Below are positions 6,732 to 29,623 of a stretch of 35,832 nucleotides of DNA, one piece after another. Source of the DNA: Oscillospiraceae bacterium (lineage in GTDB: Bacteria > Bacillota > Clostridia > Oscillospirales > Ruminococcaceae); contig JAFQLH010000027.1 in assembly GCA_017396665.1 (NCBI GenBank), positions 1-35,832 on the forward strand, written 5' to 3'. Position numbers and translations under genes: made by a program. The notes below the pieces were generated by a model, which did not search any database, was not told the DNA's origin, and was given only the letters and a program-made list of their open reading frames with translations. The number at the start of each line of letters is the position of its first letter. Positions within the stretch are counted from its first letter, which is position 1.

Positions 6732-6884
6732 ATGAAAACTGAAAAATATATCTCTCCTGTAATGGAAATAAGCAGACTCTGCAGCCTCGATATCATTACC
6801 GAAAGTGTTACACCGGATGACGACGAAACAGGCATCTTAATGCTTGACGAGGACGCAAACGGTCTTGCAGATAACCTGGAGTAA
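6732..6884 (+). CDS. 50-aa peptide of unknown function
   Basis: ATG at 6732 preceded by AGAGGTG, 15 nt after the stop of the secreted-protein gene. The product reads MKTEKYISPVMEISRLCSLD then IITESVTPDDDETGILMLDE and ends DANGLADNLE. The first half resembles the 'KYxxPVMEhxxhxxxDIIT' pattern common in short gut-Firmicute proteins of unknown function (recalled, not searched). The second half is strongly acidic. It has one Cys (residue 17), no signal peptide and no membrane segment. The layout of a conserved-looking front and a short variable acidic tail beside exported proteins would fit a peptide precursor or a small partner protein. No maturation enzyme lies nearby, so this stays open. Confidence 0.65.
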   Translation: MKTEKYISPVMEISRLCSLDIITESVTPDDDETGILMLDEDANGLADNLE

Positions 6885-6903
6885 AGCCAAAGGAATGATT
6901 GAT

Positions 6904-7371
6904 TTGAAAAGAAAGCTCCTGACAGCAGCCTGCCTGCTCGTTATCGCAATCGGTCTGACCGCCTGCGACAATGACAGCAGCTCGCAAAACAAGGCTGATT
7001 CTTCGTCAGATAATTCGGCAGTTACAACAACTACTACAACTACCGCAGGGTCAGACGCTCAGCCTGACGACAGCCAGCAGGGCAACACAGAGGATGTCTC
7101 TGTAACTGTGACAACCGAGCAGACAGAAGACGCACCGCAGGGAAGCGGCTCGCAGTTGCCTGAACAGACAGACACAGATACTACTACAACTACTACAGCA
7201 GACGACGAGGGCGAGATAATAATTACCCTCGAAACGTCGCAGGATAACGGACAGGGTGCGGATAACACCACTACAACCACTACTACGGCTGAGTCAGAGG
7301 TCACTCTCCCTCAGGATAGCACCACCTCTGACGATAACGTTATTACTCTCCCGTTCGTCCCCGCATTTTAA
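6904..7371 (+). CDS. Thr/Ser/Asp-rich lipoprotein, low complexity
   Basis: 155 residues from a TTG start at 6904. AAAGGA ends at 6894, which gives 9 nt to this TTG but 0 nt to the in-frame ATG at 6895, so TTG is preferred. A lipoprotein signal peptide follows (KRKLLTAACLLVIAIGLTAC) with lipobox LTAC, so the mature protein should be lipid-anchored on the outer face of the membrane. The rest is low-complexity Ser, Asp, Gln and Thr, with three separate runs of six or more Thr encoded by ACT/ACA/ACC repeats. No folded domain is visible; it may be a surface spacer or a heavily glycosylated stalk (inference). It starts 19 nt after the 50-aa peptide and ends directly against the fold-back element. 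Confidence 0.82.
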   Translation: MKRKLLTAACLLVIAIGLTACDNDSSSQNKADSSSDNSAVTTTTTTTAGSDAQPDDSQQGNTEDVSVTVTTEQTEDAPQGSGSQLPEQTDTDTTTTTTADDEGEIIITLETSQDNGQGADNTTTTTTTAESEVTLPQDSTTSDDNVITLPFVPAF

Positions 7372-7642
7372 GGACAGTACGTATATAGACATTTGATATG
7401 TACTATTGAGGAAAACCCTTTTGAAAAAGGGTTGTTCCTCAAACTCCTTTCCTAAAACTTTTATAATAAATTTCAGCCCCATAGGGTGTACATCACAAAG
7501 TGGAGATTTTAGTCTCTCTTGGTGCATACCCTATGGGGCTGAAATTATGTTAAGAGTCTTTGTAAGGGGGCTTGGGGGACAAACTTTCTTCAGAAAGGTT
7601 TCCCCCGACAATACGCATCGAATATCTATACGGGTACTGTCC
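7372..7642. repeat. Non-coding fold-back element, copy A (271 bp)
   Basis: The whole gap between two convergent genes is one imperfect palindrome. The ends pair as GGACAGTAC / GTACTGTCC and continue imperfectly for ~20 bp. Inside are a left hairpin (7406-7442, TTGAGGAA...TTCCTCAA), a right hairpin (7574-7606, GGGGGA...TCCCCC) and a central perfect stem TTTCAGCCCCATAGGGT (7471-7487) / its complement (7528-7544). A small apical hairpin GGAGA-TTTTAG-TCTCT sits at 7502-7517. The segments 7443-7462 and 7551-7570 also pair, so the single strand could fold into a four-way junction. A second copy in reverse orientation lies at 24728-25007. No credible ORF is present. It could be a MITE-like element, a structured RNA, or a bidirectional terminator module. 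Confidence 0.9.
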
Positions 7643-7645
7643 TGA

Positions 7646-8383
7646 TTATACGTAGGATTCTTCTTTTGTTTTCTTTTTCTTTGACTTATAGATTTTCATA
7701 AGGCGGAGCTTGGACTTGACGCCTTTATAGGAGAGTATTCTTGTTACGATAGCTCCGACGACAAGGACTGCGAGAATGATTGTAACTGCGAGTTTTGAAT
7801 TCTTGCTGTACTCCGTGCCGTCTGCGATATACCTACCTACAAATGCGTTTGTCAGAGCGCAGATTATGTAGCCCATAAAGCCTGTAAAGCCTGACATAAA
7901 GCCCATTCTGTACGGGTCCATTTTTGAGCCGCCCGGCATAACATTCGAGTAAAGTGATATATGGCAGGCTATGTACATTACAAGGTGGGAGATAAGCTTC
8001 ACAGGAATGTACTTAGCGATTCCGAACACAATAAAGAATACAACATCTGAAAGAATAACTGCTGCAAATATGCTGTCAAGCGTAAGCGACATTGCCAGCG
8101 GAATCTTCGAGGTCCTTGCAGGGATTGTAGACACGAAGGTGTAATTCGAGCCGATATTTATTCCTATAAGCATCGAGGCAAAAAGCAGTATCAGAGAGGA
8201 TGCAACCTGAAGCCCCATAATTCCGCCGCCTTCTGCTTCTTCAACATTACCCAGCCTGAACAAAAAGTACACGCAGGCGAAATTTATAATTACCGCTATT
8301 AAAGTAAGCCACATACATCCGCTTTTCACAGGAAGCAGACTGAATATTTCGCTCAGACTTTTGCGATGAGTTTTGTTTTCCAT
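7646..8383 (-). CDS. ABC transporter membrane subunit
   Basis: 245 residues from the ATG at 8383, which follows AAAGGGA at ~8 nt; the longer open frame to 8452 would overlap the upstream gene with no ribosome-binding site. Several hydrophobic helices are visible (WLTLIAVIINFACVYFLF, VASSLILLFASMLIGINIG, TLDSIFAAVILSDVVFFIVFG, LAVTIILAVLVVGAIVT). The C-terminus is basic and probably cytoplasmic (KSKLRLMKIYKSKKKKTKEE). I recognise no catalytic motif. It is the last gene of the GntR-ATPase-permease-permease operon and shares its size and topology with the preceding membrane gene, so the two probably form the transmembrane part of one exporter. Substrate unknown. Confidence 0.78.
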   Translation of the reverse strand: MENKTHRKSLSEIFSLLPVKSGCMWLTLIAVIINFACVYFLFRLGNVEEAEGGGIMGLQVASSLILLFASMLIGINIGSNYTFVSTIPARTSKIPLAMSLTLDSIFAAVILSDVVFFIVFGIAKYIPVKLISHLVMYIACHISLYSNVMPGGSKMDPYRMGFMSGFTGFMGYIICALTNAFVGRYIADGTEYSKNSKLAVTIILAVLVVGAIVTRILSYKGVKSKLRLMKIYKSKKKKTKEESYV

Positions 8384-8405
8384 TTGTTTTTCCCTTTCAT
8401 AAAAT

Positions 8406-9203
8406 CTATTTGTTCTGATACCATGCGGTCTTTTCTGCTCTCTTTTCCACAACTGCCTTCTGGATTACAACGATTGCAATAATGCAGATGAGGGAAAGAG
8501 CAATGCCGACATATCCCGAAAGGAAGCCGAACATATCAATGTCTATGAACTTATCCGCAAAGTCCAGCATAAGTCCAATCCATACTATGTAGTAGATAAC
8601 GAGAGCTGCTGAAAGTATAATTCCTCTTGCCTTTTCCGAAAGACCTCTTATAACATAGAAGGAGAGAAGATAGGACACGAGTATGAATACTGCGGCAGTA
8701 GTTCCCCAGATGCCGAGTGTGCCCTTTACCACTTCAAAGCGGTCATCAATTATTATCATAACATTCGGGAAAACCGATGAGAAGAATACAAATGCCGAAG
8801 ATATCATAAATGAACGGAAGGAGAGCTTGTATGCGTCAACTTTTCTGATAGGAAGGTGCATCATAGTTTCTGCGATTGTAGCACATCCGTCTAAGTTTCC
8901 TCTCGCCTTGCTTGCAGCGGCAGGGTCATTCGGAATACAGCTGTTTAGTGTGAACAGCATAAATGCCATAAATCCCGATGTGCAGCAGAAGGTAGCGATT
9001 GTTGACTTGTCCTCGAGGAAATCATTTGTGTCAAAGATTGACCCAAATACACAGGCTGCAAGCATAATCAGTGCCATAGCTATGTAGATAATGCTTATAA
9101 CGATATTTGTTCTGCCGGTAAGACAGCGGAACACCTTTTTTGTCCTCGTTACATTTGAGTAGGAGGGATTGTATTTAACCTGCTCCTTTTTCTTTCTAGC
9201 CAT
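8406..9203 (-). CDS. ABC transporter membrane subunit
   Basis: 265 residues. The start is the ATG at 9203, with GGAGG 8 nt upstream; an in-frame TTG at 9218 falls within that ribosome-binding site. The N-terminus is basic (MARKKKEQVKYN), followed by about six hydrophobic segments (NIVISIIYIAMALIMLAACVFG, ATFCCTSGFMAFMLFTL, SFMISSAFVFFSSVFPNVMIII, GTTAAVFILVSYLLSFYVI, IILSAALVIYYIVWIGLMLDF, VGIALSLICIIAIVVIQKAVV). It overlaps the ATPase stop codon by 8 nt, which suggests translational coupling. It is probably the partner of the next membrane gene. Peptide or antibiotic export of the Ytr/Bcr type is the usual context for such operons, but the substrate cannot be read from sequence. Confidence 0.8.
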   Translation of the reverse strand: MARKKKEQVKYNPSYSNVTRTKKVFRCLTGRTNIVISIIYIAMALIMLAACVFGSIFDTNDFLEDKSTIATFCCTSGFMAFMLFTLNSCIPNDPAAASKARGNLDGCATIAETMMHLPIRKVDAYKLSFRSFMISSAFVFFSSVFPNVMIIIDDRFEVVKGTLGIWGTTAAVFILVSYLLSFYVIRGLSEKARGIILSAALVIYYIVWIGLMLDFADKFIDIDMFGFLSGYVGIALSLICIIAIVVIQKAVVEKRAEKTAWYQNK

Positions 9204-10737: not shown

Positions 10738-11433
10738 ATGAAGCTTTCATCTTATTTTACAGCCCTTGAAAAGGGAATATGGATATGCTCGATGATAGCG
10801 ATAGTCGTATCGTTTGTAATATGCGGTGAGGTTGACATTATGGTGCTGTCAGCCTGTCTTATGGGAGCCACGGGGCTTATATTCCTTGCGAAGGGAAACC
10901 CTGTAGGTCAGATTCTGACGGTGACCTTTTCGCTTGCCTACGGAATAGTGTCGCTCAAGTGCCGATACTGGGGAGAGATGATAACCTACCTCGGAATGAG
11001 TATGCCGATGGCGGCAATGGCGGCTGTTGCCTGGTACAGAAATCCGTTTGAGAAGGGAAAGAGCGAGGTTAAAATCCGAAAGCTCAGAGCATTGGATGTC
11101 GCTTTGCTTGCTTTATTTGCAGGGGTAACTACATTCGTGTTTTACTTTATACTGAAGTATTTTGACACTCCAAGCCTTACAGCAAGTACTGTGTCTATCA
11201 CAACAAGCTTTTTTGCGGCGGGGCTTACGTTCCTTAGAAGTCCGTATTACGCACTTGCGTATACTGCAAACGATTTGGTGCTTATATACCTGTGGGTTTC
11301 GGCGAGCAGCAGCGACAAGCAGTTCATACCGATGATAACCTGCTTTATGATTTTCCTTGTCAATGATATGTACGGCTTTTTCAGCTGGAGAAAAATGAAC
11401 AAGCGGCAGAGCCTTAAAGACACTGCCGCCTGA
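10738..11433 (+). CDS. pnuC: PnuC-family nicotinamide riboside (or related vitamin precursor) transporter
   Basis: 231 residues, about seven hydrophobic segments, typical length for the family. PnuC proteins carry nicotinamide riboside across the membrane for salvage into NAD. The family's features are seen near the C-terminus: NDLVLIYLWV (~178-187) and a final NDMYGFFSWRKM, with Trp, Asn and Tyr at the positions expected around the substrate channel. The start is the ATG at 10738 with GAGGAG 8 nt upstream. Expression appears to be controlled by a terminator-bearing leader. Related PnuT/PnuX proteins carry thiamine or riboflavin; no TPP or FMN riboswitch is visible here, so the nicotinamide-type substrate is favoured but not proven. 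Confidence 0.88.
   Translation: MKLSSYFTALEKGIWICSMIAIVVSFVICGEVDIMVLSACLMGATGLIFLAKGNPVGQILTVTFSLAYGIVSLKCRYWGEMITYLGMSMPMAAMAAVAWYRNPFEKGKSEVKIRKLRALDVALLALFAGVTTFVFYFILKYFDTPSLTASTVSITTSFFAAGLTFLRSPYYALAYTANDLVLIYLWVSASSSDKQFIPMITCFMIFLVNDMYGFFSWRKMNKRQSLKDTAA
11403..11429 (-). terminator. Possible terminator of the alkD-like gene inside the pnuC 3' end
   Basis: Stem GCGGCAG / CTGCCGC with a 13-nt loop lies in the last codons of pnuC. On the minus strand it is followed by a moderately T-rich TTGTTCATTTTT. The two genes converge with only a 10-nt gap and I see no other terminator. Confidence 0.4.
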
Positions 11434-11443
11434 AAATGCGATA

Positions 11444-12133
11444 CTATTTAATTGTAAGAGTACGGAGTAGAGCCTTCTGCTCGTTTGTAATGCGATAGCT
11501 TTCGATTGCCTTGCGGATGGTCTTGTTATGGGTCCATAGGTCGAGACGGTTGCCTGTGAGTAGCGGGAGAGTGCTGTCATACTGTTTTGCAAGGGCAGTT
11601 GCGAAAAACCACGCCCTCATCATATTGACGTAATACTCCTCGCTTTTTATATCCGCTACGATGCTGAGAATTTCAGGTGAAAAGTGCTCATCTAAGAAAA
11701 AGCTCATAAGGCACTTTATCCCGAACCTTACGGTGTAGGTGTGGCTTGATGAAATCCACTCGTATGCCTTTTTCAAAAGCTCGTCGGGGTGCTTTTTGAA
11801 GACCTTCGGCGAAAGGCAGTCGCAGGTTGCCCAGTTGTCTATATGAGGCAGAAACTTATCAACAAGTCCTACGCAACGCAGGAAGTCCTTTTCACGCTCG
11901 ATGATAAATGCGTGGAGATTGTTTTCCTCGTAAAATCTGTGCGGAAGGTCATCGAGAAATAAATCCTTGTCCTTTCTGCCACATAGCTCCTTAGCGTATT
12001 GTCTGAGCTTCGGTGTGCGTATGCCGATAACGCTCTCAGGGTCTGCTGAAGGAATCAGCGGAAGGTGAAAGCTTCTGTATTTTTCGTCTGCCATTGAAAC
12101 AAGCTTTTCACGTATCTCCTTTATAATATCCAT
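11444..12133 (-). CDS. DNA alkylation repair protein (AlkD-like HEAT-repeat glycosylase family)
   Basis: 229 residues from the ATG at 12133, with GGAAGGA 8 nt upstream. The sequence is all-helical with the pattern of AlkD/AlkC HEAT-like proteins: VIGIRTPKLRQYAKEL near the start, FYEENNLHAFIIER, HIDNWATCDCLSPKVF (~95-110, the family's NWATCD segment), and SHTYTVRFGIKCLMSFFL. AlkD enzymes excise bulky or charged N3/N7-alkylated purines without base flipping. Firmicute homologues of this shorter type are often annotated by family only, so glycosylase activity is inferred. It is monocistronic, has its own promoter, and converges on pnuC. Confidence 0.88.
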   Translation of the reverse strand: MDIIKEIREKLVSMADEKYRSFHLPLIPSADPESVIGIRTPKLRQYAKELCGRKDKDLFLDDLPHRFYEENNLHAFIIEREKDFLRCVGLVDKFLPHIDNWATCDCLSPKVFKKHPDELLKKAYEWISSSHTYTVRFGIKCLMSFFLDEHFSPEILSIVADIKSEEYYVNMMRAWFFATALAKQYDSTLPLLTGNRLDLWTHNKTIRKAIESYRITNEQKALLRTLTIK

Positions 12134-13704: not shown

Positions 13705-14867
13705 CAACACTTTTGCTGGTAGTAATATACCTGTCATTTATAAGCCTCGGTCTGCCCGATTCGCTTTTAGGCTCAGCTTGGCCTGTTATGAGACTCGATA
13801 TCGGAGCAGAGCTTTCATGGGCAGGAATACTATCTATGATAATGGCGTTTGCGACCATTATCTCAAGCCTCATATCAGACTTTCTTACAAGAAAGCTCGG
13901 TACAGGTCTGCTCACCGCAACAAGCGTGCTTGTTACGGCAGCTTCGCTGTTTGGCTTTGCAACGGTAGATAATTTCTATATCCTCTGCCTCATATGTGTT
14001 CCGTACGGAATAGGTGCTGGCTCTGTCGATGCCGCCCTCAATAATTACGTCGCACTCCATTTTGCATCAAGACATATGAGCTGGCTGCACTGCTTCTGGG
14101 GCGTCGGTGCGTCAATAAGTCCGTATATAATGTCTTACTGTATCGGTCAGGATAAGGGCTGGCAGGGCGGATACCTGTCGGTGTCGGTTTTGCAGATTGT
14201 TCTTACAGCGATTATTTTCCTGAGCCTTCCGCTTTGGAAAAAACGCTCAGCAGAAAGCGACGACACGCAGGCAAAGAATATCGGCATCAAGGGTGCACTC
14301 AGAATAAAGGGAGTAAAGTGGATTCTCATAACCTTCTTCTGCTACTGCGCAATGGAGTCAACAGCAGGTCTGTGGGCAAGCTCCTACCTCGTAAGCTGTA
14401 GGGGAGTAGATGCCCCGACAGCCGCTAAGTTTGCGTCTCTCTTTTACCTCGGAATAACCGCAGGAAGGTTTTTCTGCGGCTTTATCGCTGAAAGGCTGGG
14501 CGACAAAAGGCTCATACTCATAGGAAGTGCAGTCCTCATAAGCGGAATTATTCTCATAATGCTTCCGCTTGATAACGGAGTGCCGGCGCTTGTCGGACTC
14601 GTGGTAGTAGGGCTTGGCTGTGCACCGATTTATCCGTCGGTTATCCACTCAACACCGTTTTGCTTTGGCAAGGAAAACTCCCAGGCAATCATCGGTATAC
14701 AAATGGCCAGCGCATATACAGGCACAACCTTTATGCCGCCTGTCTTCGGGCTTATCGCACAGTATATCTCGGCGCAGGTGTATCCGTTCTTTCTAATGCT
14801 GTTTGCGGTGCTTATGCTCGTTACATATAGTTTTACAGTGAAAAGTGTCTCCTCTGCACAGCAGTAA
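13701..14867 (+). CDS. Major facilitator superfamily (MFS) transporter
   Basis: 388 residues, about twelve membrane segments. The MFS layout is visible: GLPDSLLGSAWPVM in helix 1, an inter-helix loop DFLTRKLG (~55-62), a conserved HCFWGVGASISPYIMSY (~130), a central charged loop (LWKKRSAESDDTQAKN), and a second-half repeat with AERLGDKR. The fold resembles the fucose-permease/YfkF-like group, which tends to transport sugars or small metabolites; the substrate is unknown. It overlaps the MATE gene by 4 nt and is followed by a terminator, so the operon has two genes. Confidence 0.9.
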   Translation: MTTLLLVVIYLSFISLGLPDSLLGSAWPVMRLDIGAELSWAGILSMIMAFATIISSLISDFLTRKLGTGLLTATSVLVTAASLFGFATVDNFYILCLICVPYGIGAGSVDAALNNYVALHFASRHMSWLHCFWGVGASISPYIMSYCIGQDKGWQGGYLSVSVLQIVLTAIIFLSLPLWKKRSAESDDTQAKNIGIKGALRIKGVKWILITFFCYCAMESTAGLWASSYLVSCRGVDAPTAAKFASLFYLGITAGRFFCGFIAERLGDKRLILIGSAVLISGIILIMLPLDNGVPALVGLVVVGLGCAPIYPSVIHSTPFCFGKENSQAIIGIQMASAYTGTTFMPPVFGLIAQYISAQVYPFFLMLFAVLMLVTYSFTVKSVSSAQQ

Positions 14868-14897
14868 CAGTATCAAAATCAATAGATGAAATGAATA

Positions 14898-14930
14898 AAG
14901 TCCGGGGAATGTATTCTCCGGACTTGTTTT
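14898..14930 (+). terminator. Intrinsic terminator of the MATE-MFS operon
   Basis: Stem AAGTCCGGGGAAT (14898-14910) with ATTCTCCGGACTT (14913-14925) and a very tight loop, then GTTTTAT. It lies 30 nt after the MFS stop. On minus it is also 25 nt past the hydrolase stop and could serve that gene. Confidence 0.85.
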
Positions 14931-14955
14931 ATGTTATGAGCAAGGCAACTGCATG

Positions 14956-15648
14956 TTACAGGTTTTCCAACAGCCACTTATCGACAATATCGGCATCTCC
15001 CTGTGCCATAAATGGATGGTCGCTGTTTTCAGCTACTGTGAGCTTGCAACCAAATCTGTCGGCGAAGTCATTTATGACCTCCGTGGACTGGAAAGTGTCT
15101 TTCCCTGCGAACAGGATACTTGTTTTGATGCTCCAGACGGATATTGGATGTTCCTTTGCATATTTGTAGTATTTCCACGACATGATGTCAATAGGTGTGT
15201 TGATTTCTTTTTCTGTATAAAGACGTTCTTCCGATATATCATACCATATCATCATTTGTTTTATCAGATACTCCATGTCAATAATAGGGGACTGAAAAAG
15301 ACACTTCTTTATGTCGAGCTTATCGTAAGTGTTAAGACAGAAGTAAGCACCCAGACTGCAAGCGTAAAGCGATACTTCCTTCCAGACGGAAAAAGCATAG
15401 TCGCCTATTATTGAAAGGTCATGCATCCCGTTCCATATGTCACATCTGCGGTCCTCATGCGTGCGTTCTCCGTGCTGCGGCAGGTCAAAGCTTATCGTCT
15501 GATAGCCCTTTGCCTCAGCAATTTCAGCAAGTCCTCCAGCAGACTCCTTTGAGGACATTTTCCCGTGTACGAATAAGTACACCTTGTCCGACTTTTCTCC
15601 CCAGACAATAGCCGGGATTCCGTCAATTTCAATTCTTGTTCTTTTCAT
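14956..15648 (-). CDS. Alpha/beta hydrolase
   Basis: 230 residues starting at an ATG with GGGAG upstream. An oxyanion-type VHGKMSS segment lies at ~27-33, the nucleophile elbow ACSLG at 96-100 (Ser98, the G-x-S-x-G pattern with Ala in the first place), and a late His in NSDHPF near 211 completes a plausible triad. An Asp in LFAGKDTF (~190) is the likely acid. There is no signal peptide, so it should be cytoplasmic. Short stand-alone hydrolases of this kind act on esters, lactones or peptides; no substrate can be assigned. It is transcribed alone from its own promoter. Confidence 0.85.
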   Translation of the reverse strand: MKRTRIEIDGIPAIVWGEKSDKVYLFVHGKMSSKESAGGLAEIAEAKGYQTISFDLPQHGERTHEDRRCDIWNGMHDLSIIGDYAFSVWKEVSLYACSLGAYFCLNTYDKLDIKKCLFQSPIIDMEYLIKQMMIWYDISEERLYTEKEINTPIDIMSWKYYKYAKEHPISVWSIKTSILFAGKDTFQSTEVINDFADRFGCKLTVAENSDHPFMAQGDADIVDKWLLENL

Positions 15649-16051: not shown

Positions 16052-18697
16052 ATGAAATGGACAGGACTTAACGAGCTGAGAGATTCCTACCTCAAGTTCT
16101 TTGAAAGCAAGGGAGCTTTAAGAAAGAAAAGCTATTCGCTTATACCTCAGAATGACAACAGCCTTCTGCTTATCGTAGCAGGTATGGCACCTTTAAAGCC
16201 TTACTTTACAGGTCAGGAGGTTCCGCCGAGAACAAGAATGACAACCTGCCAGAAGTGTATCAGAACAGGCGATATCGAAAATGTAGGTAAGACAGCAAGA
16301 CACGGTACATTCTTTGAAATGCTCGGTAACTTCTCATTCGGCGATTACTTCAAGGAAGAAGCAATCGAATGGGCTTGGGAGTACTGCACAAAGGTGCTCG
16401 AGCTTCCTGAAGAAAGACTCTTTGTATCTGTTTATGAGGAAGACGACGAGGCAGAAAAAATCTGGCACGAGAAGATGGGACTTCCGCTCAATAAGATTTT
16501 CAGAATGGGCAAGGAGGATAACTTCTGGGAGGCTGGAACTGACGGACCTTGCGGACCTTGTTCAGAAATCTATTTCGACAGAGGCGAGGAGTACGGCTGC
16601 GGCAAGCCTGACTGTACAGTAGGCTGTGACTGCGACAGATATATGGAATTTTGGAACCTCGTGTTCACTCAGTTTGAACGCCACGAGGACGGAACATATA
16701 CTCCTCTTGCTCAGAAGAATATCGACACAGGTATGGGACTTGAAAGACTCGCAGCTCTTATGCAGGGCGTAGGCTCAATCTTTGATGTTGATACAATCAA
16801 GGCTATCAGAGATAAGATTTGCGAAATCGCAGGCTGTGAGTACGGCAAGGAATACAAGAAGGACGTTTCTATCAGAGTTATCACAGACCATATCAGAAGC
16901 GTTACATTCCTCGCTTCTGACGGAGTGCTACCTTCAAATGAGGGCAGTGGCTATGTTATGAGAAGACTCTTAAGACGTGCAGTTCGTCACGGAAAGCTCC
17001 TCGGAATCAACGGCCTGTTCCTTAAGGATATCGTAAAGACTGTTGTAGATAACTCAAAGAGCGAGTATAACGAGCTTGAGGAAAAGTACGACTATATCGT
17101 AAAGCTCCTCACAACTGAAGAAAAGAACTTCAACGAAACTATCGACAGAGGCCTCAATATCCTCTCAGGCTATATCGAGGAAATGCAGAAGAACGGCGAA
17201 ACTGTCCTCGACGGCGTAAAGTGCTTCACACTCAGCGACACATACGGCTTCCCGATTGACCTCACAAGAGAAATCTTAGAGGAAAAGGGACTCTCCTGCG
17301 ACGAGGAAGGCTACGCAAAGGCTATGGACGAGCAGAGAGAAACAGCCCGTAAGGCAAGAGGCGGCTCTAAGTATATGGGTGCTGACGAAACTGTTTTCCA
17401 TAAGATTGATAAGAACTTCTCAACAGAGTTTGTAGGCTACAATACTCTGAAGGCCGAAGCTGAAATCGCATTTATCGCAAATGACGATGAGCTTCTGGAT
17501 AATGCAGGTATCGGCGACGAGGTTTATATCGTATCCTCAAAGACTCCTTTCTACGCTGAAAGCGGCGGACAGGCAGGCGATAAGGGTATTATAAAGACGG
17601 CAAGCGGCGTCTGTGAGGTAATTGATACCCAGAAGGTCGTTGCAGGTAAGTTTGCTCATAAGGTAAAGGTTACAGAGGGCGCAGTTTCATGCGGTCAGCA
17701 GGCTCAGTTTATTGTTGATAAGGAGAACCGTGAGAACACAATGAGAAACCACTCATGTGCACACCTTCTCCAGTCAGCTCTCAGAAAGGTCCTCGGTGAC
17801 CATGTTCACCAGGCAGGTCAGCTCGTTGACGGAGAAAGACTCAGATTTGACTTTTCTCACTTCGAGGGCGTAACTTTGCAGCAGCTTTCTGAAATCGAGG
17901 AAATCGTAAACAGCTATATCCTCGCAGCTTATGATATCAAGGTAGAGGAAATGGCTATCGACGACGCTAAGAAGCTCGGCGCTATGGCTCTGTTCTCTGA
18001 AAAGTACGGCGAAACTGTAAGAGTCGTTACAATGGGCGACGCTTCAATCGAGTTCTGTGGCGGTACACACCTTGACAATACATCAAAGGCAGGACTGTTT
18101 AAGATTGTTTCCGAAAGCTCGGTAGCTTCCGGTGTAAGAAGAATCGAGGCTGTTACAGGAAACGGAGTGCTGGGGCTTATCAAGCAGCAGGCTGACCTTA
18201 TCTCAGCTTGTGCTTCAATCCTCAAAATCGGTAATACCGCTGAGCTCTCGAACAGATGTGCAAGCGTTATGGGCGAAATCAAGGCACTCGAAAGAGAAAG
18301 AGATTCTCTCCAGAGCGAGATTTCAAATATGAAGCTTAGGTCACTTCTTGATAACGTAACTGAAGTAAACGGCGTTAATGTTATTACCGCTAAGCTCGAC
18401 GGCGTAAAGCCTGATATGCTCAGAAAGATGTGCGACGAGATTAAGGCTGATAAGCCTGATACAGTTGCAGTCCTCGCAGGAGTTGACGGGGGCAAGGCAA
18501 ACCTTGCTTGTGCAGCAGGTAAGGACGCAGTTGCAAAGGGTGCTCACGCAGGTAAGATTGTAGGAAAGGTTTCCGCAGTTACTGGCGGTAAGGGCGGCGG
18601 ACGTCCTGACAGCGCTATGGCTGGTGTAGCAGATATTGCAAAGCTCGACGAAGCACTCTCAAGCGTAGCTGAGATTGTAAAAGAATTTATTAAGTAA
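16052..18697 (+). CDS. alaS: Alanine-tRNA ligase
   Basis: 881 residues, normal full length. AlaRS charges tRNA-Ala and edits mischarged Ser and Gly. The class II catalytic core starts at once (TGLNELRDSYLKFFESKGA), with motif 2 region PRTRMTTCQKCIRTGDIENVG (quoted in part), TARHGTFFEMLGNFSFGDYF, and motif 3-like GMGLERLAALMQG. The editing domain has the zinc ligands HSCAH (His567, His571) and CGGTH (Cys669, His673). The C-terminal coiled coil and DHHA1-type domain end with GGKGGGRPDSAMAG. The ATG at 16052 follows AAGGAGA. It is controlled by the T-box leader and begins a run of genes that continues with the HIT protein 19 nt later. Confidence 0.98.
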   Translation: MKWTGLNELRDSYLKFFESKGALRKKSYSLIPQNDNSLLLIVAGMAPLKPYFTGQEVPPRTRMTTCQKCIRTGDIENVGKTARHGTFFEMLGNFSFGDYFKEEAIEWAWEYCTKVLELPEERLFVSVYEEDDEAEKIWHEKMGLPLNKIFRMGKEDNFWEAGTDGPCGPCSEIYFDRGEEYGCGKPDCTVGCDCDRYMEFWNLVFTQFERHEDGTYTPLAQKNIDTGMGLERLAALMQGVGSIFDVDTIKAIRDKICEIAGCEYGKEYKKDVSIRVITDHIRSVTFLASDGVLPSNEGSGYVMRRLLRRAVRHGKLLGINGLFLKDIVKTVVDNSKSEYNELEEKYDYIVKLLTTEEKNFNETIDRGLNILSGYIEEMQKNGETVLDGVKCFTLSDTYGFPIDLTREILEEKGLSCDEEGYAKAMDEQRETARKARGGSKYMGADETVFHKIDKNFSTEFVGYNTLKAEAEIAFIANDDELLDNAGIGDEVYIVSSKTPFYAESGGQAGDKGIIKTASGVCEVIDTQKVVAGKFAHKVKVTEGAVSCGQQAQFIVDKENRENTMRNHSCAHLLQSALRKVLGDHVHQAGQLVDGERLRFDFSHFEGVTLQQLSEIEEIVNSYILAAYDIKVEEMAIDDAKKLGAMALFSEKYGETVRVVTMGDASIEFCGGTHLDNTSKAGLFKIVSESSVASGVRRIEAVTGNGVLGLIKQQADLISACASILKIGNTAELSNRCASVMGEIKALERERDSLQSEISNMKLRSLLDNVTEVNGVNVITAKLDGVKPDMLRKMCDEIKADKPDTVAVLAGVDGGKANLACAAGKDAVAKGAHAGKIVGKVSAVTGGKGGGRPDSAMAGVADIAKLDEALSSVAEIVKEFIK

Positions 18698-23899: not shown

Positions 23900-24724
23900 A
23901 TGGAACAACAGAACAGACCAAGAAAAAAGAAATACAGAATACTTTGGCACAGAGTAATAATCGCACTTATAATTCTTATCGCTCTCCTTGCGGTAGTCAT
24001 CTGGGGAATTGTCTCCTTCTTCAGCTTCGTTATCGGACTGTTCAGCGGTGATGACGACAGCTCAAGCGTGCAGGACACCGCCGCATCGGTATCCTCACAG
24101 GAAGAAAGCAGCAAGATAGAAATCCCCGAAAGCTCCTCCCAGCCTGAGCCGACAACAGGGCTTAAGGTCGTAATCGACGCAGGCCACGGCGGAAATGACG
24201 TCGGCGCTATGGACGTCACCGAAACCCGCTATGAAAAGGACGACGTGCTCAAGGTCGCACTCCTCGTAGAACAGTATCTTGAAGAGAAGGGCGTTGAGGT
24301 TATAATGACAAGAGATACAGACGTGTTTGTCAGCCTCAATGACAGATGCACTATCGCAAATGAATCACAGGCGGATTTGTTCGTTTCTATCCATAGAAAT
24401 CTCTATGAGGGCGAAGCGAGAGGCGTCGAAATCTGGGTAACTAATAAACGCTATGAGATTGATACGGCGCTCGGTCAGAATATTATGAACGGACTCGAGC
24501 TTGCCGGTATTTCAAGAAACAGAGGCGTCTGCTTCGGATATATCGGTATGCCGAATAAGAACTACCAGGTCAACAGAGAAACAGATATGCCGTCTTGCCT
24601 CATTGAGCTCGGCTTTATGCAGGACGATATGGATAACCAGCTCTTTGACGAAAACTATGAGGAATATGCAAAAGCTATCGCGGACGGCGTGTGGAAAACC
24701 GCAACCGACTATAATCTCAATTAA
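23900..24724 (+). CDS. Membrane-anchored N-acetylmuramoyl-L-alanine amidase (Amidase_3)
   Basis: 274 residues. A basic cytoplasmic N-terminus (RPRKKKYRILWHR) leads to one membrane segment (~19-47, VIIALIILIALLAVVIWGIV) and an acidic Ser-rich linker to ~85. The catalytic domain (~88-270) has the zinc ligands His96 (DAGHGG), Glu112 (RYEKDD) and His165 (SIHRN), and the general-base Glu236 (CLIELGFM). It cleaves the bond between MurNAc and L-Ala on the outer face of the membrane, as in cell separation or spore-related wall turnover. It starts 12 nt after pyrB and is probably co-transcribed. It ends 3 nt before the left arm of fold-back element B. Confidence 0.93.
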   Translation: MEQQNRPRKKKYRILWHRVIIALIILIALLAVVIWGIVSFFSFVIGLFSGDDDSSSVQDTAASVSSQEESSKIEIPESSSQPEPTTGLKVVIDAGHGGNDVGAMDVTETRYEKDDVLKVALLVEQYLEEKGVEVIMTRDTDVFVSLNDRCTIANESQADLFVSIHRNLYEGEARGVEIWVTNKRYEIDTALGQNIMNGLELAGISRNRGVCFGYIGMPNKNYQVNRETDMPSCLIELGFMQDDMDNQLFDENYEEYAKAIADGVWKTATDYNLN

Positions 24725-24727
24725 ACC

Positions 24728-25007
24728 AACGGGTAACATTCGTATAGGAACTCTATATGTATTTTTGGAGGAAACCTTTCTGAAGAAAGTTTTCCCCCAA
24801 GCCCCCTTACAAAGACTTTCAATATGATTTCAGCCCCATAGGGTATGCACCAAAGAGAACTAACTTCAATTCTCTGATTTGTGATGTACACCCTATGGGG
24901 CTGAAATTTTACTAAAAGTTTTAGGAAAGGAGTTTGAGGAATAACCCTTTTTCAAAAGGGTTTTCCTCAAGAGTACATGTAAAAATCCTATACGAATGTT
25001 ACCCGTT
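24728..25007. repeat. Non-coding fold-back element, copy B (280 bp), inverted relative to copy A
   Basis: The ends are a perfect 22-bp inverted repeat (24728-24749 with 24986-25007; core GGGTAACATTCGTATAGG). The right end runs into the stop codon of trmB (25006-25008). Inside, read in reverse, is the same series as copy A: hairpin TTGAGGAA...TTCCTCAA (24934-24970), central stem TTTCAGCCCCATAGGGT (24828-24844) with its complement (24890-24906), and the G-rich/C-rich hairpin (24765-24800). The apical hairpin is AGAGAA-N10-TTCTCT (24854-24875). The core is almost identical to copy A, while the outer stem and apical hairpin differ but stay paired. It lies between convergent genes, as copy A does. 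Confidence 0.9.
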
Positions 25008-25677
25008 ATTTTCTGAACATTGCTTCGAGTCTATAGATAGGGAAGCCCTGGCTTGAGAACTTGGCTTCATACTCGGTAACGATATTATCCTCGAAGTCGC
25101 TGTTATGGAGGTCGAGGGAGATATTCTTGAGGAGACAGCCATAGCGTGAGAATTCCTCGAGTGAGAACTCAAAGAAATTGCGGTTGTCGGTTTTCTGGTG
25201 GATTTCTGCACCTTCAACGAGGAGCTTCTCGTAAATTTTCAAGAAGTTAGTGTGGGTAAGCCTGTGCGAAGCGTAGCTCTTTTTTGGATAAGGACAGCTG
25301 AAGTTGAGATACAGCCTTCCGATAGAATTATGCGGAATGTAGCACTCAAGGTACTCAGCGCCGCCCCTCATAAAAATAAGGTTAGGGATATCCTGTTCCA
25401 GTGCCTTTTCGCAAGCCTCAACGATAACGTTGCTGCTCTTCTCAACAGCCAGGTAGTTTATATCAGGGTTTCTCTTAGCAATCTCGCAAGCAAACTGACC
25501 CTTGCCGCAGCCTATCTCAAGGTGCACGGGGTTGTCGTTGTTAAAAAGCTTTCTGAGGTCTAAAACCTCCGAGGTGTCAATAGCGTTGAAGCTTCTGTCC
25601 TCTCTGTCCATATAAATAATCTTGTCGCCGCAATCTGCGAGCCTCTGTTCAAGATTCTTCTTTCTTCTCATTCTCAT
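25006..25677 (-). CDS. trmB: tRNA (guanine-N7-)-methyltransferase
   Basis: 223 residues. TrmB makes m7G46 in the variable loop of tRNAs using S-adenosylmethionine. The SAM motif HLEIGCGKGQF is at 52-62, followed by YLAVEKSSNVIV and the family catalytic stretch LYLNFSCPYPKKSYASHRLTH (quoted in part), where most homologues have NFSDPWPK; here Cys replaces the Asp and Tyr the Trp. The C-terminal TEYEAKFSSQGFPIYRLEAMF closes the RNA-binding site. The start has GGAG 9 nt upstream. It follows a hypothetical gene by 15 nt, in an operon headed by galK. The Asp-to-Cys change at a normally conserved site deserves a check. Confidence 0.92.
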   Translation of the reverse strand: MRMRRKKNLEQRLADCGDKIIYMDREDRSFNAIDTSEVLDLRKLFNNDNPVHLEIGCGKGQFACEIAKRNPDINYLAVEKSSNVIVEACEKALEQDIPNLIFMRGGAEYLECYIPHNSIGRLYLNFSCPYPKKSYASHRLTHTNFLKIYEKLLVEGAEIHQKTDNRNFFEFSLEEFSRYGCLLKNISLDLHNSDFEDNIVTEYEAKFSSQGFPIYRLEAMFRK

Positions 25678-27892: not shown

Positions 27893-29623
27893 TTAGAAGC
27901 CGAGGATTGCCTTGAAGTCAGCAGAAAGCTTCTGCTCAAGTGCACTTGCAGCCTCTCTTGTCTCGCCGATTGTTGTGTAGTAAGCCTTAATCTTTGGTTC
28001 AGTGCCTGAAGGACGGATAACAACTGAAGCACCGTCTTCAAGTGTGAATGAAAGGACATCAGACTTAGGAAGTGTGATAGCGCTCTTTACACCTGTTGCA
28101 ACATCTGTCTTTTCACTTGCAATGTAGTCAGCAACCTCAATAACCTTAAGACCGCCGATTGAAGCAGGAGCAGTAGCTCTGAGACCTGCCATAATCTCCT
28201 TCATTCTTTCCATGCCTGTCTCACCCTCACAAACAAAGCTGTTCTGAGTGTGAACGTAGTTTCCGTACTTGCGGTACATATTTTCTCTTGCTTCGAGAAG
28301 TGTGATACCCTTTGTGCGGTAGAAAGCAGCCATTTCGCAGATAAGCATAGAGCCTACAACTGCGTCCTTGTCTCTTACATAAGAGCCTGCAAGGTAGCCG
28401 TAGCTTTCTTCAAAGCCGAAGATGTATCTGTAAGCCTCGCCGTCATTTTCGAGGAAGCCAATCTGCTCGCCGATGAACTTGAAGCCTGTGAGAACCTCTC
28501 TCATTTCAACAGAGTATTCTTCACAAATCTTTCTTACGATATCAGTTGTAACAATTGTCTTTACAGCAACAGGGTTCTTAGGCATTGTGCCGTTCTTTGT
28601 TCTTTCCTCGCAGATGTACTGAAGAAGCATTGCACCAACCTCGTTACCTGTGAAGAGAACATAGCTTCCGTCAGGAGCAGGTACAGCAATACCAACTCTG
28701 TCACAGTCAGGGTCTGTAGCAAGGAGAAGGTCAGGCTTTACGCTCTCGCAAAGCTCAAGACCCTTCTGAAGAGCTTCCTTGATTTCAGGGTTAGGGAATG
28801 GGCAGGTAGGGAAGTTTCCGTCAGGGTTTTCCTGCTCAGGAACAACAGTTACCTCAGAAATGCCAATCTTCTTGAGAATAGCTCTTACAGGCTTGTTACC
28901 TGAACCGTTGAGCGGTGTGTAAACAACCTTGAGTCCGCTGTCTGCAACGAGCTCAGTGTGAACACCCTGCTTTGAAACCTCATCGAGATAAGCGTCAATA
29001 ACGCTCTGGTCGATAAGCTTTATCATTCCGCTTGCAATACCTTCTTCATAGCTTACAAGCTTAGGACCGCCGAACATTTCAACGGAGTTAATCTTTTCAA
29101 TAACTGTGTTGGCAACATCAAGTGTAATCTGACAGCCGTCTTCACCGTAAACCTTGTAGCCGTTGTACTTGGCAGGGTTGTGAGAAGCAGTTACAACAAT
29201 ACCTGCGTTGCAGTTTAAGTATCTTACAGCCCATGAGAGCATAGGTGTAGGCATAAGCTCGCTGTAAAGGTGAACTGTGATACCGTTTGCTGCAAGAACT
29301 CTTGCTGCTTCCTTTGCAAAAACGTCAGACTTGATTCTGCTGTCGTATGCAATAGCAACAGAGCCGTTTTCAAATGAGCCGTTTACATAGTCAGCAAGTC
29401 CCTGTGTAGCACGTCTGATTGTGTAAACATTAAGACGGTATGTTCCTGCACCGATAACGCCACGAAGTCCGCCTGTGCCGAATTCGAGGTCACGGTAGAA
29501 TCTGTCGTTGATAGCCTCGTCATCGCCCTCGATTGCCTTAAGCTCTGCCTGAAGGTCAGCATCATCAACAGCCTTTTCGCACCAGCTCAGATAGAGCTCC
29601 TTTTCCTTTGGTGAAAGTGTCAT
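27893..29623 (-). CDS. Phospho-sugar mutase (phosphoglucomutase/phosphomannomutase)
   Basis: 576 residues, the length of the Firmicute PgcA-type enzymes. Four family loops are visible: the catalytic phosphoserine in TASHNP (Ser147), the metal loop DPDCDR (~306), the sugar-binding loop GFEESYG (~400) and the phosphate-binding loop RPSGTEPKIKAY near the C-terminus. It interconverts hexose-1- and hexose-6-phosphates. It thus links galactose/glycogen breakdown and cell-wall sugar nucleotides to glycolysis, which fits the neighbouring galactokinase. GGAGG precedes the ATG. It is followed 3 nt later by a 91-aa gene and a terminator. Confidence 0.95.
   Translation of the reverse strand: MTLSPKEKELYLSWCEKAVDDADLQAELKAIEGDDEAINDRFYRDLEFGTGGLRGVIGAGTYRLNVYTIRRATQGLADYVNGSFENGSVAIAYDSRIKSDVFAKEAARVLAANGITVHLYSELMPTPMLSWAVRYLNCNAGIVVTASHNPAKYNGYKVYGEDGCQITLDVANTVIEKINSVEMFGGPKLVSYEEGIASGMIKLIDQSVIDAYLDEVSKQGVHTELVADSGLKVVYTPLNGSGNKPVRAILKKIGISEVTVVPEQENPDGNFPTCPFPNPEIKEALQKGLELCESVKPDLLLATDPDCDRVGIAVPAPDGSYVLFTGNEVGAMLLQYICEERTKNGTMPKNPVAVKTIVTTDIVRKICEEYSVEMREVLTGFKFIGEQIGFLENDGEAYRYIFGFEESYGYLAGSYVRDKDAVVGSMLICEMAAFYRTKGITLLEARENMYRKYGNYVHTQNSFVCEGETGMERMKEIMAGLRATAPASIGGLKVIEVADYIASEKTDVATGVKSAITLPKSDVLSFTLEDGASVVIRPSGTEPKIKAYYTTIGETREAASALEQKLSADFKAILGF

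Follow-up and report, generated by a model that had tools for sequence, protein, structure and literature searches.

A dispersed MITE/REP-like palindromic repeat of Ruminococcus-type bacteria located mainly between convergent genes

Bacterial MITEs such as RUP, BOX and SPRITE of Streptococcus pneumoniae, Correia and ERIC are small, non-coding, dispersed elements with inverted-repeat ends, and several MITEs of the IS630 type use a TA target. The REP, BIME and REPIN sequences of enterobacteria and Pseudomonas are short, palindromic, intergenic and multi-copy, with paired inverted hairpins around a variable centre, and to our knowledge they do not sit in terminator loops; target sites linked to terminator hairpins are found for group IIC introns. 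The cited passages of PMC1525189 place REP elements often between convergent genes and describe ISPsy8 as an insertion sequence that enters REP palindromes at the symmetry axis, while those of PMC10969869 report that RUP, BOX and SPRITE insert into one another and that SPRITE resembles a terminator. The element described here, of ~275 bp, is a dispersed MITE/REP-like repeat of Ruminococcus-type bacteria, two copies of which lie in a 35,832 nt contig of an Oscillospiraceae bacterium (the window). The original prediction for this contig proposed an inverted pair of non-coding fold-back elements; it made no mention of converging gene ends or of terminator loops. Among the open-licence PMC papers searched, we found no description of the element, nor of a family combining terminator-loop insertion with a fixed interior and drifting ends.

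Two inverted copies with a four-way-junction layout

Both predicted copies exist and are oppositely oriented (Table 1). Each consists of an outer stem, a side hairpin (SL1), spacers that pair into a long central stem, a second side hairpin (SL2) and the returning strand of the outer stem, which corresponds to the proposed four-way junction; the halves with SL1 and with SL2 are related in inverted orientation but have diverged. The RNA folds lie far below those of shuffled sequences, with −132 kcal/mol for the + strand of copy 1 (z −13.4), −148 kcal/mol for the − strand of copy 2 (z −17.4) and −134 kcal/mol for its + strand (z −14.5), and 0 of 200 shuffles was as low in each case. Two details had to be corrected: the G5/C5 hairpin is present and represents the second side hairpin, and the near-identity of the copies holds for the core, as the outer stems differ in sequence, yet each is paired.

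Copy 1 starts with the TAA stop codon of an ORF at 6844–7371 (+) and ends 2 bases from the stop codon of the converging ORF at 7646–8452 (−); copy 2 is flanked by converging Amidase_3 and Methyltransf_4 genes. As predicted, neither contains a credible ORF (none of at least 80 aa), and a 108-aa frame at 24501–24827, which overlaps the amidase gene, merely runs into copy 2. At the four other converging ORF junctions inspected in the window, there were ordinary hairpins at 2080–2150 and 14860–14962 and no hairpin at 11425–11450 and 27985–28020, which are too short or overlapping. The window further contains a T-box leader (RF00230; 15795–15996, +; 104.8 bits, gathering score 93) directly upstream of the alanyl-tRNA synthetase gene at 16052–18697.

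Table 1 Features of the two element copies in the window (borders of copy 2 approximate).
Feature	Position	Strand	Basis or context
Copy 1, whole (TAAGG ... CCT)	7369–7643	+	
Copy 1 outer stem, left arm, copy-specific sequence	7372–7405	+	fold; arm pairing compared with arms of other copies
Copy 1 SL1 (TTGAGGAA...TTCCTCAA)	7406–7442	+	fold; mean identity 97%, 21 copies of own genome
Copy 1 spacer 1, partner of spacer 2	7443–7470	+	fold and alignment
Copy 1 central stem, 5′ strand (TTTCAGCCCCATAGGGT)	7471–7487	+	sequence and fold
Copy 1 apical hairpin, variable; inverted in some other copies	7488–7527	+	
Copy 1 central stem, 3′ strand	7528–7544	+	sequence and fold
Copy 1 spacer 2	7545–7573	+	fold and alignment
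Copy 1 SL2 (GGGGGACAAACTTTCTTCAGAAAGGTTTCCCCC)	7574–7606	+	sequence and fold
Copy 1 outer stem, right arm	7607–7643	+	fold; arm pairing
Copy 2, whole	24729–25006	−	between stop codons of ORF 23900–24724 (+) and ORF 25006–25677 (−)
Copy 2 outer stem, 21 bp	24729–24749 with 24986–25006		
Copy 2 central stem, one strand	24828–24844	−	
Copy 2 central stem, other strand	24890–24906	−	

A fixed interior and drifting, paired ends

The supposed pair belongs to a family that occupies 32 places in the host genome (G000; 1.83 Mb, 87% complete), namely 25 intact copies, 4 cut by contig ends and 3 partial ones. The exact central-stem pattern was found in 77 stretches of GTDB contigs, all from five MAGs whose titles read Ruminococcus sp. 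or Oscillospiraceae bacterium; deer gut is the source of three. The element was matched in 9 of 41 genomes comprising the host and its relatives (several in the side hairpins only). With locus L125 as reference, it was also matched in the genus to which another carrier, G269, belongs (78 of 125 genomes; at most 6 candidates were scored per genome, and copy counts are lower bounds). A further 22 genomes of the family contain halves made of side hairpin and spacer, combined there with different central and outer stems. Related genomes, where the original prediction had suggested looking, do hold further copies with preserved pairing. Several draft contigs end inside copies (C8, C12, C13 and C15 of G318; C26, C27, C37 and C47 of G000), and draft assemblies therefore undercount the element. 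That it falls into no named family was confirmed in Rfam, with zero matches at gathering score and no convincing family at E ≤ 5 (best sub-threshold match rli51, 32.1 bits versus 48), and a distant-mode blastn search of plasmid and phage collections with positions 7400–7610 as query gave zero matches.

We collected 96 distinct copies, excluding those within 130 bases of a locus end, and recognised both inner borders in 85. Alignment A2 holds 77 of these 85, cores longer than 216 nt and four G004 loci being excluded. Most copies were collected via the exact central-stem pattern, so that the invariance of the central stem in A2 reflects how copies were chosen, a bias that does not extend to side hairpins, spacers and arms. 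Over 21 copies of the host genome, identity was 93–97% in SL1, spacers and SL2, 40 and 48% in the outer arms and 53% in the apical loop; the six JAFTPG copies had 86 and 80% in the arms and 99% in SL1. Across genomes, within-genome identity was 91–100% for side hairpins and spacers versus 40–86% for outer arms. Outer arms and apical loop drift after insertion but keep pairing. SL1, SL2 and the spacers hardly change, a constancy that may mark them as the recognition sites of a candidate mobilising or binding factor.

As the arms do not align, RNAalifold on the 77 copies returned no outer stem, and duplex energies were used for the arms instead. These averaged −39.7 kcal/mol for arms of the same copy versus −20.7 kcal/mol for arms of different copies, and same-copy pairing surpassed all of 30 cross pairings in 53 of the 85 copies and failed to do so in 32. 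Matched double changes in both central and outer stem separate the orthologous copies L213 and L215, which lie in stretches of 91% identity. An alignment of 83 of 245 half-elements (at most 6 per close genome) showed pairing in 98% of cells compared with 93% (maximum 94%) in 500 shuffles; two-sided changes occurred at 4 of 9 pairs, mostly separating SL1 from SL2 subtypes and hence representing few events, and the number of pair types (10) was not above that of the shuffles (11.4). To look for selection at the RNA level, we also compared G-U with A-C, which amounted to 103 versus 70 on the transcribed strand of co-directional copies (p 0.015; plus versus minus copies, p 0.10) and to 209 versus 254 in convergent copies, the intended control (p 0.04). 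The upkeep of pairing could result either from an RNA function or from template-switch correction of DNA palindromes, a question that the inside-out conservation makes directly testable.

Gene ends, terminator loops and rearrangement

Convergent genes flank 58 of the 85 copies, usually with no more than ~20 bp to the stop codons; another 22 sit between co-directional genes and 1 between divergent ones, with 4 unresolved. The convergent share (58 of 81 classifiable copies) exceeds that of background ORF pairs from the same loci, which include the element sites (63 of 238; p 1e-12). A contiguous 200-kb stretch of SVNK contains 14 elements (merged from 18 pieces, short frames overlapping elements being left out), which are found in 8 of its 15 convergent gaps, 6 of its 80 co-directional gaps and none of its 16 divergent gaps (p 3e-5); both counts rest on simple ORF heuristics.

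Outside the outer arms, many copies carry a second, locus-specific, terminator-like stem. With TA required at both borders, the stems of 22 of 85 copies scored above the 99% threshold set by re-paired flanks. By a second score it was found in 18 of 85, distributed as 6/6 in JAFTPG, 3/8 in SVNK, 7/37 in JAGALZ, 1/7 in SVNM, 1/23 in G000 and 0/4 in G004 (JAGALZ and G004 being the same genome with different copies), and the genome of the window thus has a clear outer terminator stem at a single copy. The flanks are polarised, with T-runs to the right in 53 of 85 copies versus A-runs in 20, and A-runs to the left in 51 versus T-runs in 9; the TTTT of those 53 lies within the right flank and not in all cases directly at the stem. 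TA at both borders was the best of the 16 dinucleotides (22 copies versus 15 for AT), and the element possibly targets TA. As TA is self-complementary, a duplication is indistinguishable from the palindrome.

One empty site reveals a loop insertion. G314 carries the 12-bp intrinsic terminator AAAAAGCAGTCCGAATGGACTGCTTTTTC where contig C6 of G318 reads AAAAAGCAGCC-element-GGCTGCTTTTTTT; the flanks are 95 and 93% identical and lie in 100 kb of synteny at 88–94% identity. This is the single clear case; the orthologue sought in G314 for the G318 copy on C12 yielded a 69% match away from the element and that for the copy on C13 element matches only. At ten orthologous junctions of G000 and the more diverged G004, the element was present in both genomes at seven and in one at three (two in G000, including copy 2 of the window, and one in G004). 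The element-free genome has a different, ordinary terminator at two of the three, among them the copy 2 site in G004, and another GC-rich repeat with a terminator at the third (L007/L088). These sequences are unrelated to the stems at the occupied sites, and the three sites show presence and absence, not loop insertion.

The element also behaves as a mosaic. Two of the seven shared G000/G004 pairs (L015/L133 and L010/L128) have opposite orientations of the core with respect to the flanks, although for L010/L128 an independent insertion is possible because the arms do not align. Some copies also have the apical portion of the central stem in reverse orientation (L001 versus L021). The orthologous copies at 234.6 kb of G318 C6 and 96.3 kb of G314 C33 have quite different central stems; the former contains a further hairpin module inside SL2 and part of the downstream flank of the latter matches another G318 contig, which suggests a rearrangement at the element. 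Palindromes nested in palindromes were also seen at L089, L094, L113, L127, L079 and G314 C4 (L248), where a side hairpin has received an additional hairpin module (CTCCCCACAGTGTGGGGAGATGTC...GACAGAGGGGAC). Reduced forms occur in G000: at L034 (1935–2018) and L033 (1753–1857) the central stem is present with side hairpins missing or degenerate, in L034 followed directly by a T-run as in a plain terminator, and L035 (1640–1750; C61, ~60.2 kb) has a long outer stem with one side hairpin only, possibly an ancestral or collapsed form. At the starts of loci L066 and L115, one and the same sequence, with a short hairpin and, at the contig end, an ORF starting MSKRYGH, interrupts the element at an identical position in the G-run that precedes SL2; the start of the ORF is reminiscent of IS30-type transposases. 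This sequence may be an IS targeting these palindromes; a similar hairpin lies inside the central stem at the start of L043, from another species.

We searched for two transposase families. Y1_Tnp (PF01797), sought in 21 genomes that do not include G269–G272, gave only a truncated match to 31 model positions where a G000 contig begins and nothing in G001–G009, and the IS630-type DDE_3 (PF13358) was absent from six carriers.

Alternative readings and relation to known systems

The dispersion, the one loop insertion, the placement, the conserved pairing and the fixed side hairpins would fit a scheme in which copies enter the loops of intrinsic terminator hairpins, as seen in one case and suggested statistically for many more, through an enzyme presumably acting in trans and possibly at TA. 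Where two genes converge, the main location of the copies, the old terminator stem, or the outer stem of the element after the old one has decayed, would form the base of a large hairpin that may serve as the 3′ end of both genes. We consider the chances about even that the element is such a non-autonomous mobile family of ~275-bp palindromes, which enters terminator loops and then becomes part of a two-way 3′-end hairpin; the placement itself is best read as targeting of, or survival in, terminator loops. The two-way terminator function is predicted from sequence. More tentative is the wider idea that a class of mobile elements spanning the family detects its targets through their structure, namely terminator-hairpin loops, that copies of it have been co-opted as the main two-way terminators of convergent gene pairs, and that a dedicated protein recognises their fixed side hairpins. 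Structure-targeted insertion into terminator loops, if true, would explain the harmless occupancy of 8 of 15 convergent junctions in 200 kb, and plain terminator, terminator with element and element alone form a natural series for studying the replacement of transcription ends.

A purely parasitic palindrome might insert widely but, through its harmful effect, be lost everywhere except at gene 3′ ends, its arms being kept paired by template switching (quasipalindrome correction) without an RNA function. This would produce an identical placement and likewise matched double changes, and the G-U/A-C comparison gave no clear signal of selection on the RNA, but it leaves unexplained why the core is fixed at 91–100% while the arms diverge, unless copies convert one another, and the empty site lies in a terminator loop and not at just any 3′ end; we leave it a probability well short of even. 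Convergent placement as in the cited passages on REP (PMC1525189), folding of both strands and the lack of a preferred core orientation in the two inverted orthologous pairs would also suit a DNA-level element like the enterobacterial REP/BIME, acting as a cruciform or as a putative binding site, for example of gyrase or a nucleoid protein. The signature of A- and T-runs fits terminators instead, and this possibility appears unlikely.

Strong folds and side hairpins fixed across genera could also point to a structured RNA family acting in trans from many gene copies. We think this very unlikely, given the lack of an Rfam match, the tens of copies at gene ends and the core inversions, which would turn the RNA into its complement. 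Hardly any probability goes to an in situ origin, with palindromes growing as local terminators underwent repeated fold-back copying: the inverted kinship of the SL1 and SL2 halves would agree with it, but the occurrence of the same ~200-nt core at unrelated loci and its absence at orthologous ones already contradict it.

The preferred reading, a mobile palindrome entering terminator loops, agrees with the MITE/REP-like mobile repeat considered in the original prediction, which gains support from dispersed copies, the empty site, inversion and module exchange. The alternative offered there, an undescribed structured RNA, would agree with the conserved pairing, which template-switch correction of DNA palindromes could equally produce. 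The element shares with bacterial MITEs its short, non-coding, many dispersed copies and sites that are empty in relatives (G318/G314 and the three G000/G004 sites). Its arms are inverted repeats within each copy but only 40–86% identical between copies, and an interior that stays fixed while the ends drift but keep pairing is the reverse of ordinary MITEs and transposons; the autonomous partner was not found for PF01797 or PF13358 in the genomes searched, and the lack of DDE_3 in six carriers is a difference from IS630-type MITEs. With REP and REPIN it has in common paired inverted hairpins in intergenic space; it differs in its ~275-bp size, the four-way junction, the copy-specific outer stem and the lack of a complete Y1/RAYT transposase in the carriers searched. 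Insertion sequences of the ISPsy8 type likewise enter the centre of a hairpin-forming target, but they encode a transposase and target REPs, whereas the element is non-coding and its probable target is an intrinsic terminator. Unlike group IIC introns, it is neither an intron nor a retroelement, and it lies, in the one clear case, in the terminator loop with the stem kept on both sides.
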